A stretch of 64,000 nucleotides of DNA from Akkermansiaceae bacterium (GTDB taxonomy: Bacteria > Verrucomicrobiota > Verrucomicrobiia > Verrucomicrobiales > Akkermansiaceae): contig CAIZNN010000212.1 of NCBI GenBank assembly GCA_903934285.1, forward strand, positions 62,001 through 126,000, given 5' to 3'. A program made the translations under genes and the position numbers. The notes below the pieces were generated by a model. That model was not told the origin of the DNA, searched no databases, and saw nothing but the letters and a program-made list of their open reading frames with translations. Shown one piece after another: positions 3,094 through 42,627 of the stretch. The stretch's first letter is position 1. Each line of letters starts with the position of its first letter.

Positions 3094-4767
3094 TCAGGGT
3101 GTGGGCAATTTGGCGGGCGTGCGGGGATCGAAATGGGCGCGAATGCCGCCGGTGAGCGTCGAAACCTGGAAGCCGTTTTGCGCCAGGATGCGGGCGGCAA
3201 AATAGGCGGACTTGCCGAGGGCACAGACGGTCACCACCGGACGACTGCGATCCAGCTCGCCGAGGCGCTGGCGCAGTGCCCCGAGCGGGATATTTACCGA
3301 ACTCACTTGGGTCAACGGATGCGCCTGCACCAGTGCGGCAGGACGGGTGTCAACCACTTGCACTAGCGGGTCGTTAGGGATGGAATCAATAGGAGTCACG
3401 AGACCGTCGCGGGCATTGCAGGCGGTGAATGCGGCTAGGTTGACGATGTCCTTGGCAGCACCGAATGGCGGAGCGTATGCCAGTTCCAGTTGTGCTAGAT
3501 CATCAATGGTCAATCCGCCCGTAATGGCCGTGGCTATCACATCCAGACGCTTGTCCACCCCAAGGAAACCCGTGACTTGCGCACCGAGCACGCGGCCGGT
3601 TTCCGGATCCCAGAGCAATTTGAGCAGCAGCGGCTTCGCGCCGGGATAGTAACCGGCGTGATGGTTGTCGTTGACGGTGACGCTGCGATACATACGGCCT
3701 GCGGCACGAAGGCGTTTCTCCGACCATCCGGTCAACCCTGCGGCAACATCAAAGGCACGCACAATGGCGGTTCCCAGTGCCCCCGGGTATGGCTTGGTTT
3801 GTTCGAGATGGAAAATGTGATCGGCTGCCAGCCGGCCCTGACGATTGGCAGGGCCGCCCAAGGGAACTGCGGTCGCATCTCCACTCACAAAGTCTTTGAT
3901 CTCAATGGCATCGCCGGCGGCATAGATGTCGGGATCGCTGGTCTGCATGAATGGATTGACACAGATGTGGCCCCGCAGACCAAGTTCCAGTCCGGCATCA
4001 CGGGCGAGCGCGGTGTCTGGGCGCACGCCGATGCTCAACACCACAAGGTCGGCTTCCACTACGCGACCGGAGTTGAGGCGGCAAGTCAGCGCGGCTTCGC
4101 CGACAAAACCCGCGATTCCGTCGCCAAGGATGAGTTCGATGCCGTGGCGGCGAAGTTCGTCCTCCATCAGGTGTGTCATCGGGCCGTCAAGCGGCGGCAG
4201 CACTTGATCCTGGAGTTCGACCAACGTGACTTGTTTGCCCAGTCGTACGAATTGCTCGGCCATTTCCAGGCCGATGAAACCCGCGCCGATCACGGTTACG
4301 CGCCGGGCGCTGGCGGCGGTGGCCTTGATGCGATCCATGTCTTGCAACGAGCGCAGGGTAAACAGGCGGGGATCATCGATGCCCGGCAGGTCGGGCCGCA
4401 ACGGCACGGCACCTGGCGCGAGCAAAAGTTTGTCATAGGGCAGCCATTCGGTGGTGCCGGCGGCAATCTCACGCAACTGCACGCGCTTGCCCGGACGGTC
4501 AATGGCAATGGCTTCGGTGCTGGTGCGCACGTCGATAGCCAGCATGGCCTTGAGCGTCTGCGGGGTCTGCACGGCAAGCGCGTCGCGCTGCTTGATTTCT
4601 CCACCAATGAAATAGGGCAGGCCGCAGTTGGCGAAGGAAACATCAGGACCACGCTCTATCAATGTAATTTGGGCGGATTCGTCGAGCCGCCTGGCGCGGG
4701 CGGCACAGGAAGCTCCGGCGGCCACGCCGCCAACTATCACCAATCGCTTTCCGTTTGTGAGATTCAT
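3094..4767 (-). CDS. CoA-disulfide reductase-like flavoprotein with C-terminal rhodanese domain
   Basis: 557 residues. Residues 8-25 are the FAD Rossmann motif (LVIVGGVAAGASCAA). The redox cysteine of the CoADR/NADH-oxidase family is at position 48 (SFANCGLPYFIGG). The NAD(P)H Rossmann motif VIGAGFIGLEMAE is near 165, followed by a dimerization domain. The last ~95 residues form a rhodanese domain with active loop VCALGKSAYFAA. Such fusions reduce CoA persulfide/polysulfide or CoA disulfide (family knowledge). First gene of the CoADR-rhodanese-methyltransferase-TauE unit. A TGTAAC-N15-GGCTCT promoter-like element ends 15 nt before the ATG. Confidence 0.92.
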   Translation of the reverse strand: MNLTNGKRLVIVGGVAAGASCAARARRLDESAQITLIERGPDVSFANCGLPYFIGGEIKQRDALAVQTPQTLKAMLAIDVRTSTEAIAIDRPGKRVQLREIAAGTTEWLPYDKLLLAPGAVPLRPDLPGIDDPRLFTLRSLQDMDRIKATAASARRVTVIGAGFIGLEMAEQFVRLGKQVTLVELQDQVLPPLDGPMTHLMEDELRRHGIELILGDGIAGFVGEAALTCRLNSGRVVEADLVVLSIGVRPDTALARDAGLELGLRGHICVNPFMQTSDPDIYAAGDAIEIKDFVSGDATAVPLGGPANRQGRLAADHIFHLEQTKPYPGALGTAIVRAFDVAAGLTGWSEKRLRAAGRMYRSVTVNDNHHAGYYPGAKPLLLKLLWDPETGRVLGAQVTGFLGVDKRLDVIATAITGGLTIDDLAQLELAYAPPFGAAKDIVNLAAFTACNARDGLVTPIDSIPNDPLVQVVDTRPAALVQAHPLTQVSSVNIPLGALRQRLGELDRSRPVVTVCALGKSAYFAARILAQNGFQVSTLTGGIRAHFDPRTPAKLPTP

Positions 4768-14535: not shown

Positions 14536-17500
14536 TCAAGGTTCGGAGTTTTCGCCACTCCTTAACTCACGGCGGTGATTGAAGGCATAGTAGAGGATAG
14601 GCACCGCCATGCGGCTGATGAGCAGGCTGGCGACTTCACCGGCCATCAGGGCGATGGCGAGGCCTTGGAAGATCGGATCGGCCAGAATCACCGCGGCACC
14701 GACGATGACCGCCATCGCGGTGAGGAGCATCGGGCGGAACCGCACGGCACCGGCGTCGATGACCGCTTCGCTCAGGGCCATGCCCTCGCGCAGGCGCAGT
14801 TCGATGAAGTCCACCAGAATAATGGAGTTTCTGACCACGATACCGCCGCCGGCCATGAAGCCGATCATGCTGGTGGCGCTGAAGAATGCACCCATCAGTC
14901 CGTGGGAGGGCAGGATACCGATGAGCGAGAACGGGATGGCAATCATGACGATGGCCGGAGTGATGAAACTGCGGAACCAGCCGACCATAAGCACGTAAAT
15001 CAAAATCAAACAGGCGGCAAAGGCACTGCCGAGATCCCGGAATACCTCGATGGTGATATGCCACTCACCATCCCATTTCATGGATGGTTCGGCGTCGGAA
15101 AATGGCATGCTGGCATTGTGAATCTTCAACTCCGCGCCACTGCCGCCGAACTCCCGGGTGTCGAGGGCTTTCAAGGCCTTGTTCATGCCAAGGATCGCGT
15201 AAACCGGACTTTCCACGATGCCGGCGACATCGCCGATGACATAAGTCACCGGCATCAGATTCTTGTGATAGAGGCTCTTTTCCACAATGCCGTGCTCAAT
15301 CTTCACGAGTTCGCGCAACGGCACCAGCGGCGCGGCGGAGCCACCCGGTTCGGGCAGGGCATTGGCATCACCCGAACGCACGCGCAGGGCTAACAACTCG
15401 TCGGTCGTGGTCTTGGACGAGCGTGGGATTTCAAGCCGGATGCCGACATCTTCCTTTTCGGCGGGTTGATGAAGGAGATCGACGGTCTCTCCATCCACAG
15501 CGATCTGGAGGGTCTGGGAAATGGTGGCGGCGCTGATGCCGTGGAGCGCTGCCTTTTCCTTGTCGATGACAAAGCGGTCCTTTTGTTGATCCGCCTCATG
15601 ATACCAATCGACATCCACCACCCCAGGGGTTTGCTTGAAAATGGTTTTAACTTTGTCCGCCAGCTTGAGTCGGGACTCCTCGTTAGGTCCGTAGATTTCT
15701 GCGACGAGGGTTTGGAGGACCGGCGGGCCAGGTGGCACTTCGGCAATCGCCACCCGCGCCTGGTATCGCTCGGCAATGGCGGCGATCCGCGGACGGATTC
15801 GTTTGGCGATGTCGTGGCTTTGGGCAGAACGGTCGTGTTTGGAAACCAGGTTGACCTGAATGTCTGCGATATTGGCCCCGCGCCGCATGAAATAGTGACG
15901 CACCAGTCCGCTGAAATTGAAGGGCGAGGCCACGCCAGCATAAATCTGCCAGTTGGTGACTTCCGGTTCGTCGCGGATGGAGGCCCCCATCTCGCGGGCG
16001 ACGGCGGCTGTTTGTTCGAGCGACGCGCCCTCCGGCATGTTGAGGATGATCTGGAACTCACTCTTGTTGTCAAACGGCAGCATTTTCACTTTCACCCAGC
16101 CGAGGCCGACGGTGGCGAACGATGCTAACAGCAACAGGGTAATCCCTGATAGAAACGTCCACCGCCAGCCCGCATGGTGAATCAACGGAGCCATCACGCG
16201 GCGATAGAGCCGGGTGAAGGCATCCTCTTCATGGTCCGATGCGTGGCTAACGGTTGCAGGTGCCGCCTCCGCGCTTTGATCGGCAGGGGGGCGGTATTTT
16301 TTGCCCCATTTGAGGATGCGGATCGACGCCCAGGGGGTGACGATGAAGGCAATGAGCAGCGACCAGAACATCGCGGCACTCGCGCCGATGGGAATCGGCC
16401 GCATATAGGGACCCATCAGGCCGCCGACAAAGGCCATCGGCAACACTGCGGCAATCACCGCGAAGGTCGCCAGGATGGTGGGATTGCCCACCTCGTTGAC
16501 CGCTTCCACCGCGATGGCCGACCAATTCCGTCCTTGGTTGCCCGGCAGATGGAAATGGCGGACGATGTTTTCCACCACGACGATGGCGTCATCAACGAGG
16601 ATGCCGATGCTGAAAATCAGCGCAAAGAGCGTGATGCGGTTGAGGGTGAAACCATACAAATAGAACACCAGCAAGGTGAGCGCAAGCGTGGCGGGAATGG
16701 CCACCGCCACGATGCCCGATTCGCGCCATCCTAGGGTGAGCCAAATGAGCAGCGTGACGCTGAAGATGGCAATGCCCATGTGGAATAACAATTCGTTGGA
16801 TTTCTCCGCCGCGGTTTCGCCATAGTTGCGGGTCACGTCCACCGTCACGTCGGCGGGAATGAGCTTCCCTTTGAGCAGGTCCACCTTGCGCAGCACCTCG
16901 TCGGCGACGGCAATGGCATTGGCACCGGGGCGTTTGGCGATACTGAGGGTGACGGCCGGTTCCTCAATATGATTTCCCGCACCGAATAACACATATTGGC
17001 TGGTTTCCTCGCTGCCATCCTGGATGTCCGCCACTTCCCGCAGATAGACCGGCTTCCCGCTGAACACACCGATGACCACATTGCCGACATCTTCCGCTGT
17101 TTTCAGAAACGCGCCGGTTTCCACCAGCACTTCACGGTTGGCGGTGGTGATGCCACCGGCGCGGTACTGGCGGTTCGATTGTTGCAGCATCGGCACGATC
17201 CCTGCCGGACTGAGGCTGCGGGACGCCAGGCGGGCCGGATCAAGAATCACGCGCACCGCCTTGCGGGCACCACCGATGAGTGTGGTCTCGGCGACTAACG
17301 GAACTTGTTTGATCGATTCCTCAACTTGCGCCGCGAGCCGCCGCAACATGAGGTGATCGTAGCGGTTACTGTGAAAGGTGAGTCCCAGAATCGGCACATC
17401 GTCGATGCTCTTGGGCTTGATCAGCGGCGGGGCAACTCCGGGCGGGATGATGTCGAAATTTGAACGGAGCTTTTCGGTGAGTTTGACCAAGCTGCCCTGC

Positions 17501-17841
17501 GGGTCCTCCCCTACCTTGAAGCGCACGATGATCAGGCTCTCGCTGTCGCGGGAGGTCGAATAGATGTATTCGACCCCGGGCAATTCCCATAATAATTTCT
17601 CCATCGGCCGGGTGGCCCGTTCCTCGACTTCCTTGGAACTGGATCCGGGCATGGCGACCATCACATCGACCATCGGCACCTTGATTTGGGGTTCCTCCTC
17701 ACGCGGCAGCAGCACGATGGCGGCCCCGCCTAACAAAACTGCGGCGATGATGATGAGCGGCGTAAGCTTGGAGTCGATGAATGCGGCCGCGATGCGGCCC
17801 GCGATTCCCAGGGAAAGCGTTTTGGATGGGGAATCGCTCAT
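14536..17841 (-). CDS. RND-family efflux permease (AcrB/MexB superfamily, HAE-like)
   Basis: 1101 residues with the RND layout: TM1 near 34-50, a large periplasmic loop, TM2-6 around 340-530, a second loop, and TM8-12 to the end. Characteristic segments are [32 protein letters not shown] (TM4 region) and [19 protein letters not shown] near the C-terminus. The proton-relay Asp pair lies in [13 protein letters not shown]. It lacks the Met triad signature I would want before calling a Cus pump. The adaptor stop overlaps this ATG by 4 nt; TolC follows after about 130 nt. Confidence 0.93.
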
Positions 17842-18857
17842 GGCTTGGAAGTCACGGGTTGGCCATCGGTGATCTGTGAGGCATCGCTGGTCACGACCGG
17901 GTCGCCGGGTTCGAGGCCGGATAGAATCTCGGTCTTGTCACCCAACAGTTTGCCTGTTTTGACGAGGCGGAGCATGGCATGGCCTTGTCTAACTACAAAG
18001 ACCGCCTCAATCTGGCCGCGTTTGAGCACCGACTGACGCGGCACTAACAGCAGTTTGACCTCAGCCACCGGCACGGCCACACGGCCGAATTGCCCGGGGC
18101 GCAGGCCGGCGTCATTCGGCAGATCGAGTTTCACCAGAAACGTGCGGCTGACGGCATCGGCCACAGGGGAGATCTCCGAGACGGTGGCTTGGAGGGGTTT
18201 GGGCAATGACGGAATCGTGACCGGGAGGGTCGCACCCGACTTGACGTCGCCTAGCAGGCTTTCCGGTAGATCGGTTTCAAAGCGGAGATTGGCAGGGGCT
18301 TCCATTTCCATCAGCGGCTTGCCGGGCATGGCGAGATCGCCGACATCGGCGAGTTTGCGGGTGATGACGCCATCAAAAGGCGCGGTGACCTTGGCGTAAC
18401 CCAACATGGTTTCGGCTTCGTTGAGACCCGCAGTGGTCACCTTGACTCGGGCGGCGGCGTTGTCGAGTTCCTGTTGGCTGGTAGCTTTGCTGGCGATGAG
18501 GCCTTCCTGGCGGCCCAAATCGCGTTTTGCCTGATCCAACATCGCCTTGGCTTGCTCAAGCTTGGCGCGGATTTCCTGCACATCCAACTCGGCGAGCAGA
18601 TCGCCGGATTTCACGAGTTGGCCCGGGGCGACCAGGTATTGGAGGACACGTCCGCTGACTTTGGCCTCGATCACGGCGCGGAGTTTCGACCGCACCGTGC
18701 CAACCACATCCTCCGTGGCCTGATGCACTTCAAGGGTGGCGGGTGTTAGCTGTACCGCTATTGCCGGTGCGGTTTCCTTGGACCGTGCGGATTCATCGTT
18801 TTTGTGACAGGAGGAAGCCAGCAATACTGCTAGCCATAAGCCGGGGACTGATTTCAT
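17838..18857 (-). CDS. RND efflux periplasmic adaptor (membrane-fusion lipoprotein)
   Basis: 339 residues from the ATG at 18857 (a GTG at 18881 is also in frame). The N-terminus [19 protein letters not shown] resembles a lipoprotein signal. Lipoyl halves ([25 protein letters not shown] and [20 protein letters not shown]) flank a helical hairpin of residues ~95-160. Connects the RND pump with TolC. First gene of the RND unit, with promoter-like element P4 17 nt upstream. The ABC ATPase gene ends 68 nt further upstream. Confidence 0.92.
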
Positions 18858-18873
18858 CGTTTCTAAGGAGTAG

Positions 18874-18903
18874 TGAGCCACGAGAGTCCGAAAAGTTACA
18901 AAT
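18874..18903 (-). promoter_or_regulatory. ECF-type promoter P4 (RND efflux unit)
   Basis: Minus-strand TGTAAC (18900-18895), 15 nt, GGCTCA (18879-18874), 17 nt before the adaptor ATG. The match to P1 extends outside the two boxes (GATTTGTAACTTT and CGTGGCTCA), although P1 is 17 kb away. This links the RND pump to the sigma-factor cluster at 1-6 kb. Confidence 0.72.
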
Positions 18904-18925
18904 CGCAGATCATTTTTGTGGGTTG

Positions 18926-19636
18926 TTATGGAATACGGCTTTGGATCATGCCGTCCTCGACATCCAGAATGCGGTCGAAGACATCAAGCGTGCGGTGATC
19001 GTGGGTGACAACGATGACACCGGCCTGACGCTCATGGGCGATCTTGGCGAAAAGTTCCATGACCTGCCGTCCTAACGGGCCGTCGAGGGCAGCGGTGGGT
19101 TCATCGGCGAGGATGAGGCTGGGGTTGTTGGCGAGGGCGCGGGCAACAGCGACGCGCTGTTGTTCGCCGCCGGAGAGGGCCACGGGCAAATTGTTGGCAC
19201 GCGGACCGATGTTCAGGTAATCAAGCAACTCCATGGCCCGCTTGCGGGCTGCCTTTGGCGCGGTATCGTTCACTTCGAGGGCGATCTGCACGTTTTCCAG
19301 GGCCGTTAGAAACGGAATCAGGTTCGCCTTCTGAAAGACGAAACCGAGGTGCTCCCGGCGGAAGGCGCGCAGGTCCACGAGCGCCCGCGGCCCATCCATC
19401 ACCGGTTTGCCACCGATGGAGATCCGGCCGGAAGTCGGTGGATTGATCAGCGCCATGGCGGTGAGAAGAGTGGATTTGCCGGAACCGCTGGGGCCAAACA
19501 TGCCAACGATCTCACCCGGGGCGATGCTGAGCGTGGCATCACGCATGGCGACGACCTCGGTGTGGCCGCTGCCGTAAACTTTGCGGAGGTGGGTGACCTC
19601 GACCGCGGGAATGATGGGATCTGTCGCTTGCTTCAT
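18926..19636 (-). CDS. ABC exporter ATPase (DevA/LolD/MacB type)
   Basis: 236 residues. Walker A GPSGSGKST at 48-56, Q-loop VFQKANLIPFLTALENVQ, signature LSGGEQQRVAVARAL, Walker B LILADEPTAALDG, and the H-loop in VVTHDHRT. The 'NLIPFLTALENVQIALE' stretch is close to cyanobacterial DevA. The start at 19636 overlaps the permease stop by 4 nt. Energises the DevC/MacB-like permease encoded just upstream. Confidence 0.93.
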   Translation of the reverse strand: MKQATDPIIPAVEVTHLRKVYGSGHTEVVAMRDATLSIAPGEIVGMFGPSGSGKSTLLTAMALINPPTSGRISIGGKPVMDGPRALVDLRAFRREHLGFVFQKANLIPFLTALENVQIALEVNDTAPKAARKRAMELLDYLNIGPRANNLPVALSGGEQQRVAVARALANNPSLILADEPTAALDGPLGRQVMELFAKIAHERQAGVIVVTHDHRTLDVFDRILDVEDGMIQSRIP

Positions 19637-20847
19637 GCGGAGAGGACGGTGTTGGGTTCCACGTTCATGGCTTTCCAGATGCCGAGCAGGCTGGCGAGGG
19701 TGGAGATGACGACGACGATCATCGCCAGGCTGACGAGATCGGAGGGTTCTATCAGCACAAGGCGCGGGAAATGCGGAAACGCATACTGGCCGATCCACCA
19801 CGCCAACAGGTAACCGAAGGCACCCATGAGCAGTGCCTGCTGGAGAATGAGGCCGCCGATGACCCCATTGCGGGCACCGATGAGCTTGAGCAACGCGATG
19901 TCGCGGATTTTGTCGAGCGTGAGCGTGTAGATGATGAGTGCGATGATGATGGTGGAAATGATGATGAGCAGGACGCGGAAAAGCCCGAGTTGGCGGCGTG
20001 CCTTGTCCACCATGCCGGCTAGCAGGAGGTCCTTTTGTTCCTGCGTGGAATAGACAGTGATGTCCGGCCAGGTGCCCAGCGTGCGGCGCACCGCGGCTTC
20101 ATCGGTACCGGGTTGCAGAGTGACAAGCACGGCGCTGACTTGCGGCGGGGCCAACGCGGGAATGCCGCCGGACAGCCCGGCGGCGCGCTCCAGCAACAAT
20201 GGCTGGAGTCTGCCGAGATCCATATTTTCCACCCTCGCCCGCCGGGCGGCACGTTCGAGGCGCGTCGCCTCTCCCGGTTGGTCGAACTGGATGGCCATCG
20301 CATCGCTGACGGTGAAAAAAGTGAGGCCATCGCCGCCGGTGCCGACCATACCGCGGGTGAGCCCCACGACTTGATAGGCATCCTTGCCCAAACGGATGCT
20401 ACTTCCGAGTGGCAGATTTAATGACTGGTCGGCGATCATTTCATAATGCGCCTGACGCAGCGCCCGCCCGGCGACCAGCGGTACCCAGTCGCCGTGGTCC
20501 TCGGGCCAGGAAAGCCCTTGCACGACCATGCGCAGCGGTTGCCCGTTGTGCTCCCGCTGGATGGTGTGGGAGACGAAGCGGCGTGCCTGTGCCACGCCGG
20601 GCACGGCCCGCACGCGGTCTTCGAGAGTGGCGGGGATGCGGGAAATCTCCGCGAAGGGGCCGCGGGTGCTGCCCTGCACGATCCACAGGTCGGCACCCAC
20701 GCGATCCACCAGCAGCGTGGCCTCGTGGATGAGTCCCCGATAGATGCCGCCCATCCCCATGACGATCATGAGCAACATTCCGATGCCCACGGTGGTGAAG
20801 ACAAAGCGGCCCGCGTTGTGGCGGATGTCGCGAACGGCTAGATTCAT
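19633..20847 (-). CDS. ABC exporter permease, FtsX/DevC-like
   Basis: 404 residues: an N-terminal TM (residues 17-35), a MacB-like periplasmic domain (about 40-270), then three C-terminal TMs (about 285-390) of the FtsX fold. No ATPase domain is fused, in line with a DevBCA rather than MacB arrangement. Coupled at both ends by ATGA overlaps, to the HlyD adaptor upstream and the ATPase downstream. Confidence 0.9.
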   Translation of the reverse strand: MNLAVRDIRHNAGRFVFTTVGIGMLLMIVMGMGGIYRGLIHEATLLVDRVGADLWIVQGSTRGPFAEISRIPATLEDRVRAVPGVAQARRFVSHTIQREHNGQPLRMVVQGLSWPEDHGDWVPLVAGRALRQAHYEMIADQSLNLPLGSSIRLGKDAYQVVGLTRGMVGTGGDGLTFFTVSDAMAIQFDQPGEATRLERAARRARVENMDLGRLQPLLLERAAGLSGGIPALAPPQVSAVLVTLQPGTDEAAVRRTLGTWPDITVYSTQEQKDLLLAGMVDKARRQLGLFRVLLIIISTIIIALIIYTLTLDKIRDIALLKLIGARNGVIGGLILQQALLMGAFGYLLAWWIGQYAFPHFPRLVLIEPSDLVSLAMIVVVISTLASLLGIWKAMNVEPNTVLSA

Positions 20848-21998
20848 GGCAGCTTGATGCGTTGACCTTCGGTAAGCGGGGATTTCTGCCTATCAGGTGC
20901 GCGGACGACTTGTTCGCCCGCCTTCAATCCCTTGATCACGGCGAGATGGTCCTTGCCGCGCAAACCGGGAGTGATCTCGCGCCACCGGGCCTTGCCACTC
21001 GCGTTCACAAGGACCCCGGCGCGACCATCCTTCCAAACGACAAAGGCCGATGGCAGCACCACAGCATCGGCTTGGCGGCCGGTCTCGATGAAAACCTCCG
21101 CCCGCTGGCCAATGGTCCAGTTTTTCGGCAGCTCAGCGGCATGCACATCCACCAGAAACTCGCGGGTCTCGCGGTCGGTCTCGCGCCCGAGTCGCGACAC
21201 CTTGCCCGGGTAGCCGTGTCCCGGCTCCGAGCGAAAAACGATGCGTGCGGGTTGCTCCACTGCCAGGCCAGGCATCGCTGTTTCATCCACCCACGCGCTG
21301 ATCCAGAGTTCATCGAGTGAAATCATCTGCATCAAGGACGCCCCCGGGACCAACATCTCACCGGGATCGCGATCCCGGCGAATGACGAGCCCGTCATAGG
21401 GAGCGTGAATTTCGGTGAAGGCGAGCTGATCCTTGCGAAACAGCAGGTTTTTCTCCGCCACCACGATCTGCCCTTCCGCTTCTGCGATGGCCGCGTTCGA
21501 ACGCGTGAGGTCGGCTTCGGCCACCCGCAAGGCTTCGGCAGCTTTGTCTGCGTCCGCCTGAGAAACCGCTCGTGTAGAGGTGAGTCCGGTCATGCGCTTG
21601 TGATCAAGTTGGGCCTGGGTCAACACCGCCTCGGAGCGGGCGAGGTCGGCACGCACGCGCTCCGCCGTTTGTTTCGCCGCCGCCAGCGTGGCTGCGGCAA
21701 TGGCGACTTGCTGTTTCGATTCCGCATCGTCGAGCCGGGCGAGAAGCTGCCCGGCTTTCACGGTGTCCCCCTGATCCACCAGCACCTCTAACAGCCGCTC
21801 CTGGATGCGGGCGCTCACCGTCGTTTTCACCCGTGCCTCCAGGGTGCCGGTGCCCATCACTTCGGCGACGATTTCACCACGGGCCACGGTGTAAGCGACC
21901 ACCGGCACCGGCGCGAACTTGAGCTTGTAAACGGCGAACCCGGCAACGGCGGTGACGATGAGCCAGGTGAGAAGGCGGCGGATGGTGGATCGTTTCAT
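20844..21998 (-). CDS. HlyD/DevB-family periplasmic adaptor of ABC exporter
   Basis: 384 residues. An N-terminal anchor (RRLLTWLIVTAVAGFAVYKL) is followed by lipoyl half VSARIQERLLEVLVDQGDTV, a long alpha-hairpin (residues ~95-185), the second lipoyl half IHAPYDGLVIRRDRDPGEML and beta-barrel domains. Adaptor for the DevCA-like ABC exporter. The first ~235 bp and the upstream region are duplicated at 23078-23365 at roughly 95% identity in the coding part. It heads the ABC-exporter run; the divergent Crp/Fnr gene and its palindrome lie 180-240 bp away. Confidence 0.92.
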   Translation of the reverse strand: MKRSTIRRLLTWLIVTAVAGFAVYKLKFAPVPVVAYTVARGEIVAEVMGTGTLEARVKTTVSARIQERLLEVLVDQGDTVKAGQLLARLDDAESKQQVAIAAATLAAAKQTAERVRADLARSEAVLTQAQLDHKRMTGLTSTRAVSQADADKAAEALRVAEADLTRSNAAIAEAEGQIVVAEKNLLFRKDQLAFTEIHAPYDGLVIRRDRDPGEMLVPGASLMQMISLDELWISAWVDETAMPGLAVEQPARIVFRSEPGHGYPGKVSRLGRETDRETREFLVDVHAAELPKNWTIGQRAEVFIETGRQADAVVLPSAFVVWKDGRAGVLVNASGKARWREITPGLRGKDHLAVIKGLKAGEQVVRAPDRQKSPLTEGQRIKLP

Positions 21999-24297: not shown

Positions 24298-26064
24298 ATG
24301 AATGTACCGGCGAACATGAACCCGGAATTGAGTGCGGGAGCCAGACGCCTGGTCCGTTTGCGAATCTGGCTGGGCGAGCGGATTTCGGGCAACGAAATGC
24401 GCGCCACCCTGTTGTGGGCGGCATTGGCAGGGTTGATCGGAGCGTGGACATCCATTGGTTTCAAGGAAGCGACGGAGTGGTTGCACTCGCTTTTCACGGG
24501 GCATTATTCCGGGTATGTGGCGAGCTTTGCCGCCATGCCATGGTGGCGGAGGATTTTGGTGCCGACGGTGGGTGGCTTGCTGGCCGGGCTGACGCTCTAC
24601 TTTGGCAGCAGGATCAAAAGGCGACGAAGCACCACGGATTACATGGAAGCCGTGGTGGTGGGTGATGGCAAACTTTCGGTGAGGAGGAGTTTGGTTAAAT
24701 GTTCGTCGGCTTGGTTCTCCGCAGCCACCGGCGCGTCCATCGGGCGGGAAGGGCCATTGGTGTTGCTGTCCGCGCTGGCAACTTCCATGCTTGGCCGATG
24801 GTTGAAATTCCCGCTGGCCCGACAGCGGCAGATGGTCGCGTGCGGCGCGGCGGCGGGCATTGCCAGCGCTTACAACGCGCCGGTCGCCGGGGCGTTTTTC
24901 GTCGCCGAAATCGTGCTCGGTTCGCTGGCGATGGATGCATTCGGGCCGCTGGTGGTTTCCTCGGTGGTGGCAACCTTGGTGACCCGGGCGCACTTCGGCG
25001 CGGAGGCGATGTACACCGCGCCGGTTTTCACACTCCATCAAAATTGGGAATTGCTGCCCTATATGTTGTTAGGTTTGCTGTGCGGCGCGGCGGCACCGTT
25101 GTTCCTCGGGTTCCTCAAATGGAGCGAGATCGCTTTTGGCAAACTCAAACTGCCGGATTGGGCACGTTTGGCACTCGGCGGTTTGATCGTCGGCCTGTTA
25201 GCAGTGGCGCATCCGGAGGTGACGGGCAATGGCCGTATCCTGGTTTTCAGCATCCTTCATTATCCAGGAACGTGGCAGGCCCTGGCGATGATTTTCTTAT
25301 TCAAGATCGTCGCCACCGGGGCGACCTTCGGCTCCGGTGCGGTGGGTGGCGTATTCACGCCGACCTTATACACGGGAGCGGCGCTCGGCTATCTCTTTGG
25401 AGTGGCTGCGGCCGCATTGTTTCCGAGTTGGGGGCTTGAACCAGGTGCTTTCGGTCTGGTTGGGATGGGGGCGTTTCTCGCGGCGGCCACGGGTGCGCCG
25501 GTGATGGCGATCATCATGCTCTTCGAGTTGACGCTCAATTATCAAATCCTGATGCCGGTGATGCTTGCCAGCGTGATGGGTTATTACACCTGCCGATCTC
25601 TAACATCACGTTCGCTGTATAAGGACGCGCTGGCTCGGAAAGGCGCTGCAGCCGTGGCACAGCATCTCGCCACCCTGAAAATCGGCGATCTGATGCACGA
25701 GGATCCAGGTACGATTTCCCCGCTGGCTCCCTTTGGGGAAATTGTTCGCCAATTCATGCACAGCACCCAGGACTTTCTCCATGTGGTCGATGACGGGCGC
25801 TTTCTTGGCGCTATTTCTCTGCACGACATCAAATCCTATCTGGATCGTCCGGAGCTGGAAACGCTGGTGATTGCCCAGGACGTGATGCGGTACGATCATC
25901 CCACGCTTCTTCCTGAGATGTCGATGACCAAAGCGCTGGATTTCTTTGCCAGGGTGGGAACACAGCGGCTGCCAGTCACCGATGCAAGTTCCCGGTTTCT
26001 TGGAGTGGTTACCGAGACCGATGTGTTGCTGTTCCTCGCGGGCAAGCCCCGGAGCAATGCCTGA
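24298..26064 (+). CDS. ClC chloride channel/transporter with tandem CBS domains
   Basis: 588 residues. About residues 30-440 form the ClC membrane domain: GASIGREGPLVLLSALATS holds the gating-glutamate motif GREGP; GSGAVGGVFTPTLYTGAALG is the second selectivity segment. Residues ~460-585 are two CBS domains (LMHEDPGTISPLAPFGEIV; VMRYDHPTLLPEMSMTKAL). The presence of the gate Glu fits either a channel or an H+/Cl- exchanger. The ATG at 24298 is chosen as it clears the EIIA stop; a second Met lies five codons on (24316). Confidence 0.93.
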   Translation: MNVPANMNPELSAGARRLVRLRIWLGERISGNEMRATLLWAALAGLIGAWTSIGFKEATEWLHSLFTGHYSGYVASFAAMPWWRRILVPTVGGLLAGLTLYFGSRIKRRRSTTDYMEAVVVGDGKLSVRRSLVKCSSAWFSAATGASIGREGPLVLLSALATSMLGRWLKFPLARQRQMVACGAAAGIASAYNAPVAGAFFVAEIVLGSLAMDAFGPLVVSSVVATLVTRAHFGAEAMYTAPVFTLHQNWELLPYMLLGLLCGAAAPLFLGFLKWSEIAFGKLKLPDWARLALGGLIVGLLAVAHPEVTGNGRILVFSILHYPGTWQALAMIFLFKIVATGATFGSGAVGGVFTPTLYTGAALGYLFGVAAAALFPSWGLEPGAFGLVGMGAFLAAATGAPVMAIIMLFELTLNYQILMPVMLASVMGYYTCRSLTSRSLYKDALARKGAAAVAQHLATLKIGDLMHEDPGTISPLAPFGEIVRQFMHSTQDFLHVVDDGRFLGAISLHDIKSYLDRPELETLVIAQDVMRYDHPTLLPEMSMTKALDFFARVGTQRLPVTDASSRFLGVVTETDVLLFLAGKPRSNA

Positions 26065-37728: not shown

Positions 37729-39279
37729 TTAGGAAACCGATCCGGGAACGCGCCATTTGATCATTGCAACCTTGATGGCGTCATTCACCACGAGGCAGGA
37801 AATCATCGCATAACAGAATATCACCAGCGTTTGCCACCAAGGCAATCGCATGAGTCCCGGGAGACCCACGAGTGTCAGGATGGTGCCCGTGAACACATCG
37901 GCCATGAGCGCCGCCACGAGGATTTTACTGGGCATCGTCGCCCAAAACCAGTGCCGCTCCCGCGCTGAAACAATCGAAAATGCAGCAAAGTAGAGTAGCG
38001 TGAGGAAACTGAATGTGTAGAGGGCGTTGTTGTTGGTTGCCAAACCAAACCGTGACCATCCGAACCACAAGAAGATGAGCGACTCCGCAACCATCGCTAT
38101 TCCAAGCACGATGGACACGGTGATGAAGCCCCCGATGTTCCATGTTTCCGGTTTCCTGGAGGATCGGACATGGTCGGTGGCCAGCGCGATCTTGGCGAAG
38201 TCCGTCATGAATACTAACAGAAGCATGGCGAAAGCCGACACGACGAACTTGCCAGTCACCACGAACGCGATGGCCACGAAGGCCGCCTTCAGGATCGTCC
38301 GGCTGATTTTGTTGATAATCCACGTCAGGATACGCTGGTAAATCGTCCGCCCCTGCTCAACCAGCGCCACGATGTTAGTCAGCCCTGGTTCCGTCAAAAC
38401 TACGCTGGCCGCGCCCTTGGCCACGTCGGTCGCGGTGCTGACAGCGATGCCGACTTCGGCCTGGCGGAGGGCAGGAGCATCATTGACCCCGTCGCCCGTC
38501 ATGCCGGTCACATGCCCCGCTGCCTGAAGGTGCTGCACAACGATGTATTTGTCCTCCGGATAGACTTCAGCGAATCCATCGGCCCCGGCTAACAAATCAA
38601 CGGTTTCATTGCCGGCTTTGCCGCCGGCGCCCTTCAAATCCGCCACGCGCCGGATATTGGGCAGACCGACGCCGCGGGCAATTTCACTCGCGACCGCCAA
38701 CGCGTCGCCGGTGAGCATCTTGACCGGTACGCCGAGGTCGTGGAGTGTGGCAATGAGTTGCTTGGCATCCGGTCGGGGCGGGTCATACAACGTCACCAAG
38801 CCAAGCAAGACGGCGGGGCCACTCTCGGGACCCTTCGCGACCGCCAGGGTCCGGTATCCTTTCAGTGCCGATTCACTGATTCTCGTTTCCAACGCACTGA
38901 TCGCCGGTGGTTGGAGTCCGCAGATCTCAGCGACGGCTCTTACGGCGCCTTTCATCACATGGAACCGCTGCCCGTTCTGTTCTACCACGGCTTCGGTTCG
39001 GCGGGTCTTCGCATCGAACGGAATGAAAGAGACCGGCGTTACCGCAGGGATGCCGTCAAAAACATGCCGATCCTTCGCGGCGGTTAGAAACGCGAGGTCA
39101 ATTGGATCCTGATCGGATTCCTGTGACGCGAGTGCGCCTGCCAACATCACATCGGATTCAGACGCGTGCTCCAGCGGAATCACTCCGGTCACGGCGAGTT
39201 GGTTCATCGTGATCGTACCGGTTTTGTCCACACAAAGCACGTCCATATCACCCAGAGAGCTAGTCGCCCTGATCATCAA
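37729..39279 (-). pseudogene. 5'-truncated P-type (H+-ATPase/IIIA-like) cation ATPase
   Basis: 516 residues remain of an expected ~800-850. Present: the phosphorylation site CVDKTGTITMNQ at the very N-terminus, the nucleotide domain (MLTGDALAVASEIARGVGLP; GMTGDGVNDAPALRQAEVGI) and six C-terminal TMs. Missing: the first four TMs and the actuator (TGE) domain. Upstream of residue ~5 the homology stops and the frame soon meets a stop, so transport is not possible as it stands. Likely truncated during the rearrangement beside the integrase. Closest to plasma-membrane proton ATPases by motif. Confidence 0.8.
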
Positions 39280-39673: not shown

Positions 39674-40942
39674 TTACTGGCTGTTGTTTTCCATTGGCTT
39701 CATGACCACCGCTGGAGTAAGCGTCCAAAATTCGGTGGCAATTTTTCCATGAGATCGGTAGTCGTAATAGTATTGGGAAACGACGTCCGGGCTATTACCC
39801 ATCTCGTTGGCGGTTATTTCCAAGCTCTTTGTATCCGCGTATCGACAACTTCCGAATGTGTGGCGGAGTACATCACGGCGATCCACCATGGTTCCGTCGT
39901 AGACCCCTTTTCCCCGACCGCGCATGTTTCCCAGGAGATCTTTGGCGTATTTTAACCGCCATTTGCGCCATCGGGATGTCCAATATCCGGAGAGAATCGG
40001 GCCTTTCAACACGTTGCCAGGGGTTTGTGCCCGAATCCAGTCGAGCCATGCGGTCAGGGTCGGGTGAGCATCAAACTGCCGTCCCATACGAATCTTGCTA
40101 CACTCCGCTTTGACGTGGACCATGCCTTCTTGGAGGTCTTCCCAATCTGTCGTAACCGTCCTTGAAACGTTGTTGATTTTGAATCTGCCTCGGAACTCCG
40201 CCGGACGAAGTCCCGCGAATAGCGAAATCGCCAAGTGCGAAACGACTTGAAGATCCCCGGACTCAATTGCCAATTTAAGCAGCCCCCGCGCCTCGGCAGG
40301 TGACAGAGTAACTGCTTTGCCTCGGGCACGTGTTTTTTCCTTGGCTTTGCCCTTAGGGGGAGGGGGCACCGGATTCTCCGGCAGCCAACCATTAAGGGCC
40401 GCCCACCCAAGCCAACGATTTGACGTCCTGCGATAATTAATCCGATCTTGGCGTCCCGTTTTTAGTGAGGAGAGGAACGCCGACACGGCTTGGCGCGTTG
40501 CCACAGATGCGGGTTTGGAATCGCCGCCGAGGGCTTTGCACAGCAAGACTGCCCGATTCCGGATGTCACGCAAGGAGACGTCTTCCAAATCGTTGCTCTC
40601 GGACTTGAAGAAAGCCGCCCGCATCTCGCCAAGGGTGCCCCTCATCGTGATTTTCTTGAGATCCGTGATCGCCTTCTCGCCTACGGCAGCCAAAGAGCTT
40701 CCCAATTCCAGAAGATGTTTGTTGATCTTATCCCAGCGGAGGAGGTCATTTGCCGGAATTTTGGCAGCTTCTTCGCCTTGCTTCCGCCGCCGTGGTTTGA
40801 GCTCGCGGGCCCTCGCTTCGGCATCTTCCTTGATCGCAAACGTCTCGTAGCGGTCCTTGCCATCCTGCCGCCCCAGATATAGCCTCCAGCGTTCTTTCCC
40901 ATGCACCTTGACCTTGTAAGGAGTTAGACTCGTAATTGCCAT
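39674..40942 (-). CDS. tyrosine recombinase/phage-type integrase
   Basis: 422 residues from MAITSLTPYKVKVHGKERWR. An N-terminal DNA-binding region and SAM-like core domain (about 110-210) are followed by the catalytic domain: Arg in SLFAGLRPAEF, Lys in VKAECSKIRMGR, the box VLRHTFGSCRY (first His of HxxR replaced by Asp: DVLR), and the Tyr region VSQYYYDYRSHG. The start at 40942 excludes an upstream extension that is only antisense tRNA. The gene begins 75 nt from the tRNA-Arg 3' fragment, the usual place for a tRNA-targeting integrase. Confidence 0.88.
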   Translation of the reverse strand: MAITSLTPYKVKVHGKERWRLYLGRQDGKDRYETFAIKEDAEARARELKPRRRKQGEEAAKIPANDLLRWDKINKHLLELGSSLAAVGEKAITDLKKITMRGTLGEMRAAFFKSESNDLEDVSLRDIRNRAVLLCKALGGDSKPASVATRQAVSAFLSSLKTGRQDRINYRRTSNRWLGWAALNGWLPENPVPPPPKGKAKEKTRARGKAVTLSPAEARGLLKLAIESGDLQVVSHLAISLFAGLRPAEFRGRFKINNVSRTVTTDWEDLQEGMVHVKAECSKIRMGRQFDAHPTLTAWLDWIRAQTPGNVLKGPILSGYWTSRWRKWRLKYAKDLLGNMRGRGKGVYDGTMVDRRDVLRHTFGSCRYADTKSLEITANEMGNSPDVVSQYYYDYRSHGKIATEFWTLTPAVVMKPMENNSQ

Positions 40943-41016
40943 GCCGTATCCTAGCCGTATCGAAATTGCCGTCAAGCTGAAAGGCTTGCAAACAAAGGGG
41001 ATTGTGGCGAGTTCGC

Positions 41017-41062
41017 AAGGTTTCCTAAACCTTAAATGCAGGTTCGATTCCTGCCGGGGGCA
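41017..41062 (+). tRNA. 3' part of tRNA-Arg (anticodon CCT), probable attachment site
   Basis: Anticodon arm AAGGT-TTCCTAA-ACCTT (41017-41033; anticodon CCT), then a short variable loop, T-arm GCAGG-TTCGATT-CCTGC (41038-41054), acceptor 3' strand CGGGGGC and discriminator A. A matching 5' half (GCCCCCG...) is absent upstream, so this is not a full tRNA. Such 3' fragments are left at one end of elements integrated into tRNA genes. CCA is not encoded. Confidence 0.8.
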
Positions 41063-41349
41063 CTTCATTGATTTTCAATGACTTGGGTTTTGCTAAGACG
41101 CAAGACAAGAGGCAGAGAAGAGTCGACTTGTCGGACTTGTCGGACTTGTCGGACGATGTCGTGGGAGAAGATGAACTCGCCGCCGAGATGCCCGATGGTG
41201 TAGGTGAAACCGCAAAGGCTGGCTTGAAAGGCCCGATAAGCCTGCGTCACGAGGAACGCCTCCCCCCCGCCTCGCCCCAGCCAGGGGAATTTTCCGCGAA
41301 AGAATTGGCTGGAGGCAGCGTAGGGGATGGTCTCACAAACAAAACACTC
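41063..41349. other. intergenic region with 9-bp tandem repeat
   Basis: The stretch after the tRNA fragment, before the PQQ-propeller gene. It includes three direct copies of GACTTGTCG (41125-41151) followed by a degenerate one. The open frame through it continues into the PQQ gene but shows no domain. No promoter could be pinpointed. Confidence 0.45.
41125..41151 (+). repeat. 9-bp tandem repeat GACTTGTCG x3
   Basis: Three perfect tandem units plus a diverged fourth (GACGATGTCG), at 63 bp from the tRNA fragment, on the right side of the integration boundary. Confidence 0.8.
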
Positions 41350-42627
41350 ATGAAAACACGGCAGCAATTTGAGTTGGGCATGGTGGTGGCGATGGCGGCT
41401 TTCGGGATCGGGAGTTTGCCTGCCGCAGGCGCGGATTGGCCGCAGTTCCGGGGCCCCAACCTCGACGGCAAATCAACCGAGACGGGCATCATCAAAAGTT
41501 GGGAGCAACAGCCGCCGGCATTGCGCTGGATGGGCGAAGGCCTGGGCAATGGCTATGCCGGCCTGGCCGTGGTGGGCGAGCGGATCTACACCTGCGGCGA
41601 CTTCAAAGACGGCCAGGGAGTGGTGGCGGTCGATGCCAAGGACGGCAAGGTGGTGTGGACCACGGTGCTGACCGAAGGGGTGCCCAAGCACGGCTACGAA
41701 GGCGCGCGCAGCACCCCCACGGTGGTCGGCGACCAGTTGTGGGTGACCACCTCCGACGGCATGATCGCCTGCCTGAGCACGGCGGGCAAGGTGCTCTGGA
41801 AGAAGAGTTTCGACAAGGAATGGGGCGGCAAAATGATGTCGGGCTGGGGCTTTGCGGAATCGGTGCTGGTGGATGGCAAGGCGGCAATCTGCACCCCGGG
41901 CGGACCCGAGGCGATGATGGTGGCACTCGACAAGGACAGCGGCAAGGAATTGTGGAAATGCCAGGTGCCGGAATTCGCCAGCAACGGCAAACCCGGCGCG
42001 GGTTACAGCTCAGTGGTCATCTCGATGGGCGCAGGGGTGAAACAATATGTGCAAATGACCGGCCGCGGAGTGATCGGGGTGCGCGCGGCCGACGGCAAGT
42101 TTCTGTGGGGCTACGGTCACACGGCCAACGGCGTGGCTAACATCTCCAGCCCGGTGATTGAGGGCGACTATGTGTTCAGTTCGACCGCCTACGGCGCCGG
42201 CGCGGGCTTGGTGAAACTTGAAAAGGACGGTGCCGGCGTGAAGGCCACCGAGGTGTATTTCCTCAAACCCGACGTGCTGCAAAACCACCACGGCGGCATG
42301 GTGTTGGTGGACGGCTATATCTATTGCGGGCACAAACAAAACGGCGGCGACCTGGTGTGCCTCGAGCTCAAGACCGGCAAGTTCATGTGGGGCCCGATCA
42401 AGGCCCCCGGCAAAGGCTCGGCATGCGTCACTTACGCCGATGGCCACCTGATTTTCCGTTACCAAAACGGCCTGGTGGTGCTGGTCGAGGCCACACCCAA
42501 GGAATTCCGCGTCAAGGGCAGCTTCACGCCGCAGTTCCAAGAGAAGGAATCGTGGGCCTATCCGGTGGTGGCCGGGGGCCGGCTCTATCTGCGCGAACAG
42601 GACAAGGTGATGTGCTATCAACTCTGA
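41350..42627 (+). CDS. secreted PQQ-like beta-propeller protein
   Basis: 425 residues with a signal peptide ending near AAGA, then DWPQFRGPNLDGKSTETGII, the standard opening of PQQ-propeller (outer-membrane-assembly-like/quinoprotein-like) proteins. Blades repeat the pattern 'V.AVDAKDGKVVW', 'ALDKDSGKELWKCQ', 'CLELKTGKFMWG'. No catalytic motif of alcohol dehydrogenases is visible, so it is probably a structural or binding propeller. Start at 41350. TonB-receptor gene follows after 114 nt. Confidence 0.88.
   Translation: MKTRQQFELGMVVAMAAFGIGSLPAAGADWPQFRGPNLDGKSTETGIIKSWEQQPPALRWMGEGLGNGYAGLAVVGERIYTCGDFKDGQGVVAVDAKDGKVVWTTVLTEGVPKHGYEGARSTPTVVGDQLWVTTSDGMIACLSTAGKVLWKKSFDKEWGGKMMSGWGFAESVLVDGKAAICTPGGPEAMMVALDKDSGKELWKCQVPEFASNGKPGAGYSSVVISMGAGVKQYVQMTGRGVIGVRAADGKFLWGYGHTANGVANISSPVIEGDYVFSSTAYGAGAGLVKLEKDGAGVKATEVYFLKPDVLQNHHGGMVLVDGYIYCGHKQNGGDLVCLELKTGKFMWGPIKAPGKGSACVTYADGHLIFRYQNGLVVLVEATPKEFRVKGSFTPQFQEKESWAYPVVAGGRLYLREQDKVMCYQL

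Follow-up and report, generated by a model that had tools for sequence, protein, structure and literature searches.

A lambda-like tyrosine integrase and a displaced tRNA-Arg(CCT) fragment at the likely right end of an 81.6-kb integrative island in an Akkermansiaceae-type genome

The window, by which we mean the whole 64,000-nucleotide stretch of DNA that was analysed, corresponds to C212:62001-126000, where C212 is one of the 282 contigs of a 4.80 Mb draft genome that is 96.9% complete. On its minus strand, at positions 39674-40942, lies a gene for a tyrosine integrase of 422 residues, assigned by profile and predicted fold, and to the right of this gene, at 41018-41064 on the plus strand, is a 3' fragment of tRNA-Arg(CCT) with the sequence AGGTTTCCTAAACCTTAAATGCAGGTTCGATTCCTGCCGGGGGCACT. 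The fragment comprises the anticodon arm, with CCT in its loop, the T-arm and the 3' strand of the acceptor stem. ARAGORN calls no tRNA at this position, and the 27-nt 5' half of the gene was not found upstream of the fragment, where the best match is 13/27. A sequence-only reading of this DNA had proposed just such a fragment without its 5' half, together with an integrase reading away from it at a distance of 75 nt, and both proposals hold, the gap between the integrase ATG and the fragment being 75 nt. A mechanically assigned start of the integrase frame at 41068 is unlikely because that frame runs through the tRNA fragment.

The complete tRNA-Arg(CCT) that the same reading expected further to the left is present: ARAGORN places it at C212:21362-21434 (+), on the fragment's own contig and in its orientation, 81.6 kb leftward. 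Its 3' half is joined to the fragment by a direct repeat of 47 bp (45/47 identical to C212:21389-21435), and a pattern search of the whole genome allowing up to three mismatches returned only these two copies. The repeat foreseen at about 45 bp therefore exists, although its two mismatches mean that it is not identical as had been supposed, and the intact gene is linked and carries the repeat rather than lying at an unlinked locus without it, the finding that had been named in advance as speaking against an island. Since the fragment lies downstream of the intact gene, with both on the plus strand of one replicon and 81,630 bp apart, the element between them is 81,630 bp long. The 40 kb accessory region previously noticed to the left of the integrase is thus real (41 kb) but is just the right half of the island, at window 1-41017, and the remainder lies at C212:21435-62000. 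The G+C content is 58.4% within the island, 64.7% in the left flank and 62.7% in the right flank. Directly right of the island, at 41125-41160, is a 9-bp tandem repeat (GACTTGTCG) whose unit also occurs on contigs C211, C230, C164 and C181. The first chromosomal gene on this side, at 41380-42627 (+), encodes what appears from its sequence to be a quinoprotein-type beta-propeller and has homologues that are 71-82% identical in 13 other genomes of the genus.

The two mismatches in the repeat reveal which half of the tRNA is foreign. They form one base pair of the T-stem, T49-A65 in the intact tRNA and G49-C65 in the fragment, and because the change is compensated, both copies descend from working tRNAs. 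In G087, the closest relative with tRNA-Arg(CCT) at the same place, the left flank is shared (PFOR gene, 89.6% identity over 3.8 kb) and the intact tRNA is identical at 46/46 bases to the fragment, not to our intact tRNA; two further genomes, G018 and G019, also have the G49-C65 form. Given that these relatives all have the fragment's form, the fragment is, by this comparison of sequences, the displaced resident 3' end, and the 3' half of the present intact tRNA-Arg(CCT) was brought by the element. Provided that the T-arm variant of the intact tRNA was brought in by the element, the crossover must precede the first T-stem mismatch at 41038 and would fall within the 20-bp anticodon stem-loop at 41018-41037 (+), which is identical in both copies. 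An independent case is offered by the tRNA-Arg of another genome, G006, in which the fragment again has the resident form and the T-stem of the intact tRNA differs from it but is compensated.

A second feature is common to both ends. Just inside the right end, at window 40944-40961 (C212:102944-102961, +), is the doublet CCGTATC-CTAG-CCGTATC, with a period of 11 bp, and its twin, CCGTATC-GACA-CCGTATC, is found at C212:21510-21527, 76 nt inside the left end. The pattern CCGTATC-N4-CCGTATC occurs exactly twice in the 4.8-Mb genome, once at each of these places, and the chance of such a shared doublet was 3 in 200,000 random window pairs drawn from the contig. A doublet that is matched at both ends and unique genome-wide shows that both ends are parts of one element. 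The doublets fit the pattern expected for the arm-type sites of lambda-like integrases and are therefore putative binding sites of Int. The right doublet comes within 2 nt of the integrase start codon, on its upstream side, and binding of Int at this site would probably repress the int gene as well.

The AlphaFold2 model of Int (pLDDT 88.5) consists of three strands and a helix, followed by a helical core-binding region and a catalytic domain. Its best match in the PDB is lambda integrase (1z1g, full-length Int on a Holliday junction; Z 15.0, 306 residues aligned, rmsd 6.5, 14% identity). At the N-terminus, strands at 9-13, 16-26 and 29-35 and a helix at 38-60 suggest an arm-binding domain, an assignment that derives from predicted secondary structure, since the fold search barely probed residues outside 97-400. 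A profile of 32 relatives of the integrase matches XerD at 7.5e-22. The protein has the Arg I, Lys-beta, Arg II and Tyr nucleophile of the tyrosine recombinase superfamily (R246, K283, R360 and Y392) together with the core-binding and catalytic fold, and these four residues are kept in 31-32 of the 32 aligned members, one sequence being cut short and one having Arg for Lys. The canonical RKHRH pentad is not present: Asp357 and Asn383 occupy positions 3 and 5, where they align with His244 and His270 of XerD. Both residues are invariant in the nine members that form the core of the subfamily (9/9), and in the wider set the Asp is partly a selection effect, as the motif used to scan the collection contained it.

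The integrase matches no Pfam, PHROG or NCBIfam model. For Pfam the result extends to the subfamily, none of whose nine core integrases matches any model at E 0.01, PF00589 included; for PHROGs and NCBIfam it refers to this one member. We regard the missing PF00589 match as a detection limit of the model, not a defining feature of the island integrase. When 387 genomes of the order were searched with a profile, the core subfamily scored at E ~1e-129 or better and all other tyrosine recombinases at 1e-52 or weaker, a gap that is inflated because most core matches were in the profile itself. Our partial search of the literature found no description of this integrase subfamily. The subfamily and the matched doublets are new, while the kind of island is ordinary and well known.

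The arrangement recurs at other loci. Eleven of the 12 core-subfamily loci adjoin a tRNA 3' fragment, and most of them also have a doublet with an 11-bp period. Within the genus, 10 of 10 loci have a tRNA 3' fragment (Arg, Tyr, Asn, Met, Thr or Cys) on the upstream side of int, directed away from the gene, compared with 0.03% of control windows; the count by script was 9/10 because one start codon had been set too far downstream, and the tenth locus, L035, was found by inspection. Doublets of at least 7 bases with a period of 10-12 bp lie between int and fragment at six of these ten loci by script, against 4% of controls, or at eight once two more are included, in which the doublet overlaps the int frame or had been lost to a wrongly placed start. 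Some of the subfamily loci are close relatives and so are not independent. In another family (G044), a tRNA-Thr locus has GTTGCAG doublets, a motif it has in common with the tRNA-Thr locus of G065. The one exception, at G044:C105:60612-61799, has a core-subfamily int with an in-frame TAG beside an apparent tRNA 5' half, and this element is probably rearranged or decayed.

Both ends could be paired in other elements as well, of which those of G032 and G006 are complete. In G032, 66.3 kb separate an intact tRNA-Cys(GCA) from its fragment on a single contig, both ends have the doublet CCAATAGGTTGCCAATAGGT (matched doublet CCAATAGGT), and the same doublet also bounds a tRNA-Cys element in G061, there on two contigs. 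Partial Rfam hits had suggested that the fragments in G061, G023 and G032 derive from tmRNA, but this is ruled out by the matching intact tRNA-Cys(GCA) genes. The element of G006 in tRNA-Arg(CCT) spans 6.9 kb and has the doublet TGGTTACAAGTGGTTACA at both ends (matched doublet TGGTTACA); its integrase is a more distant relative of the core subfamily. This compact element (L172, G006:C23, 6993-13970) has its own int at the fragment end and several unrecognised proteins, and it resembles a small element of the satellite type. In the incomplete genomes G074 and G027, no intact tRNA-Tyr partners were found. At three other loci (L018 in G026, L022 in G019 and L194 in G023), repeated short motifs resembling GAAATGCAC or of other kinds come after other tRNA genes of the genus, in some cases together with different doublets (GATTACAAA, CGGGCAAT), which suggests further elements with other integrases at these sites.

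Taken as a whole, these observations make it very likely that window 39674-41064 is attR plus int, the right attachment end of an 81.6-kb integrative island in the tRNA-Arg(CCT) gene of an Akkermansiaceae-type member of the Verrucomicrobiota. The earlier proposal that the left part of the window belongs to an integrative element is upheld by the tRNA and repeat far to the left and by the unique doublets at both ends. According to this view, a circular form of the element would carry an attP consisting of a copy of the tRNA 3' half with a CCGTATC doublet on each side. The N-terminal domain of Int would occupy the doublets as arm sites, and its core-binding and catalytic domains the tRNA anticodon arm. 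Strand exchange in the 20-bp anticodon stem-loop would then join the 3' half supplied by the element to the chromosomal 5' half, such that the tRNA stays whole and the resident 3' half is pushed to the far end. At the opposite, left end of the island, an excisionase-like HTH_17 protein (C212:21697-22155; HTH_17 at 5e-6, and a TIGR01764 excisionase match of 5.6e-6 whose score of 26.6 is below the cut-off of 28.8) is the likely directionality factor.

It is possible, though we think it the less probable state of affairs, that the island is defective, with intact ends but no longer able to excise. The gene next to the integrase, a P-type ATPase piece at 37729-39246 (-) with only the HAD and C-terminal transport parts, is probably truncated and likely a pseudogene, which would favour this reading, but Int itself is a full-length open frame with its R, K, R and Y conserved, and both ends keep the core and the doublets. 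Much less probable is that the fragment is the relic of an older, unrelated insertion and that the 81.6 kb was assembled in several events and is not one element of this integrase. Gene content is variable, an IS21-type pair lies near the left end of the island, other elements occupy the same tRNA in relatives (G006 and G026), and other tRNAs of the genus have second-type doublet-like repeats beside the site (G023), all of which would suit a composite; against this stands the genome-unique doublet just inside both ends, the right copy of which abuts this very int gene. A nested insertion inside the 81.6-kb element is possible. That the fragment is not derived from a tRNA and the reading frame not an integrase, a chance resemblance to which the lack of matches in Pfam, PHROG and NCBIfam might point, is refuted by the 47-bp repeat with its compensatory pair, the fold match to lambda Int and the recurrence across the subfamily, and we give it almost no credence.

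The sequence-only reading had also suggested looking for the empty site in related genomes, and no empty attB was found in a close relative among the genus genomes examined. In these relatives, PFOR and a dihydroorotate-dehydrogenase-like gene, which represent the left flank, are on other contigs than the quinoprotein gene of the right flank, and the neighbours differ. Past the flanking genes the gene order varies, and the genomes are too rearranged for a left-right junction to be read; the contig of G087 breaks off after the final base of its tRNA-Arg(CCT).

The integrative island has a diverse cargo. Within the window are genes for an AcrB-type RND pump, a membrane-fusion-like protein and ABC/MacB-FtsX-type permeases (14536-21998, -), a pyridine nucleotide-disulphide oxidoreductase with a rhodanese domain in a sulfur/redox block (3094-4572, -) and a voltage-gated chloride channel (CLC) with CBS domains (24832-26064, +). 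Other island genes encode cytochrome bd, ZnuA, an ABC-3 permease, a ZIP transporter, CobW, deformylase, SufBD-like and sulfur-transport proteins, rhodaneses, an aldo-keto reductase and a subtilase. A link to zinc homeostasis has been reported for COG0523/CobW proteins (PMC2770081), and we suspect that the CobW/ZnuA block is a zinc-limitation set. The genome has three threonyl-tRNA synthetase genes, one in the island (C212:46949-48826), among zinc-uptake genes and deformylase, and two elsewhere (C47:3321-5192 and C102:54349-56223) that are 79-87% identical to the island copy. Left of the window, at C212:26456-28786 (-), is a gene for a 776-residue protein in which a VHRM...D.H.H motif is conserved and for which Pfam has no match and NCBIfam no significant one. 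Among 289 genomes of the order it occurs in four, with homologues in G009, G036 and G044; in G036 one of them is separated by ~3 kb from a related integrase located at a tRNA fragment. Its motif is such that the protein could be an unrecognised relaxase; a model built from a three-sequence alignment (pLDDT 46) was too poor for a fold search. No conjugation machinery was identified among the proteins recognised in the island by general, not T4SS-specific, models. Of the cargo, only one rhodanese gene was matched at the tRNA-Arg locus of G019.

In P4-like islands, int adjoins the intact tRNA. The present island likewise has int beside a tRNA attachment site, but at the displaced fragment instead, and no phage-satellite genes were recognised in its 81.6 kb. 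The resemblance to lambda lies in the predicted fold of Int, in its N-terminal strands-plus-helix region and in the att sites: arm-type sites in lambda flank the core on both sides, and the doublets here are placed in the same way. Apart from the low sequence identity, the differences are that the core here is a tRNA anticodon arm, that the arm sequence is another one, and that Asp and Asn are found at the two variable His/Trp positions of the active site. Six subgroups of integrases with an arm-binding domain have been described that have a complex architecture with an extra N-terminal domain, many of them integrating at tRNA genes, and in some (IntBPP-1, IntDes) the first His is reported to be weak or to have been replaced (Smyshlyaev et al. 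2021, PMC8138268); our integrase shares the integration at tRNA genes and, by prediction, the extra N-terminal domain, and the main text of that study does not mention Verrucomicrobia. In overall layout there is a parallel with the islands catalogued by Islander (PMC4383910), of which 2083 of 3919 have an anticodon-class crossover and most have 3' fragments, with lengths of 2-200 kb. There too, an intact tDNA and a displaced 3' fragment in the same orientation bracket an element with a tyrosine integrase, the difference being that int here sits at the fragment end rather than beside the intact tRNA. Islander finds integrases by PF00589, whereas the nine core-subfamily integrases have no match to it. 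Islands of this subfamily would therefore probably fail its integrase filter.

For an island of 81.6 kb from a phylum that has received little study, the analysis defines the exact ends and identifies the foreign half of the target tRNA. It also exposes a blind spot, in that tools based on PF00589 would miss islands driven by this integrase subfamily. One possibility, to which we give about even credence, is that in the Verrucomicrobiota a subfamily of integrases that target tRNA genes, go unrecognised by Pfam and have Asp and Asn at the two active-site His/Trp positions marks each element at both ends with its own arm-site doublet of ~11-bp period. Integrase, target tRNA and doublet would then change together, and the doublet alone could delimit islands and predict the integrase that acts at a given site. 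Matched doublets are an inexpensive means of assigning the two ends of one island to each other in draft genomes, and they directly predict the place where each integrase binds. Finally, the cargo, with its zinc-uptake genes and paralogues of zinc-limitation type, cytochrome bd, sulfur/redox genes and efflux, suggests that such islands move metal and redox traits.
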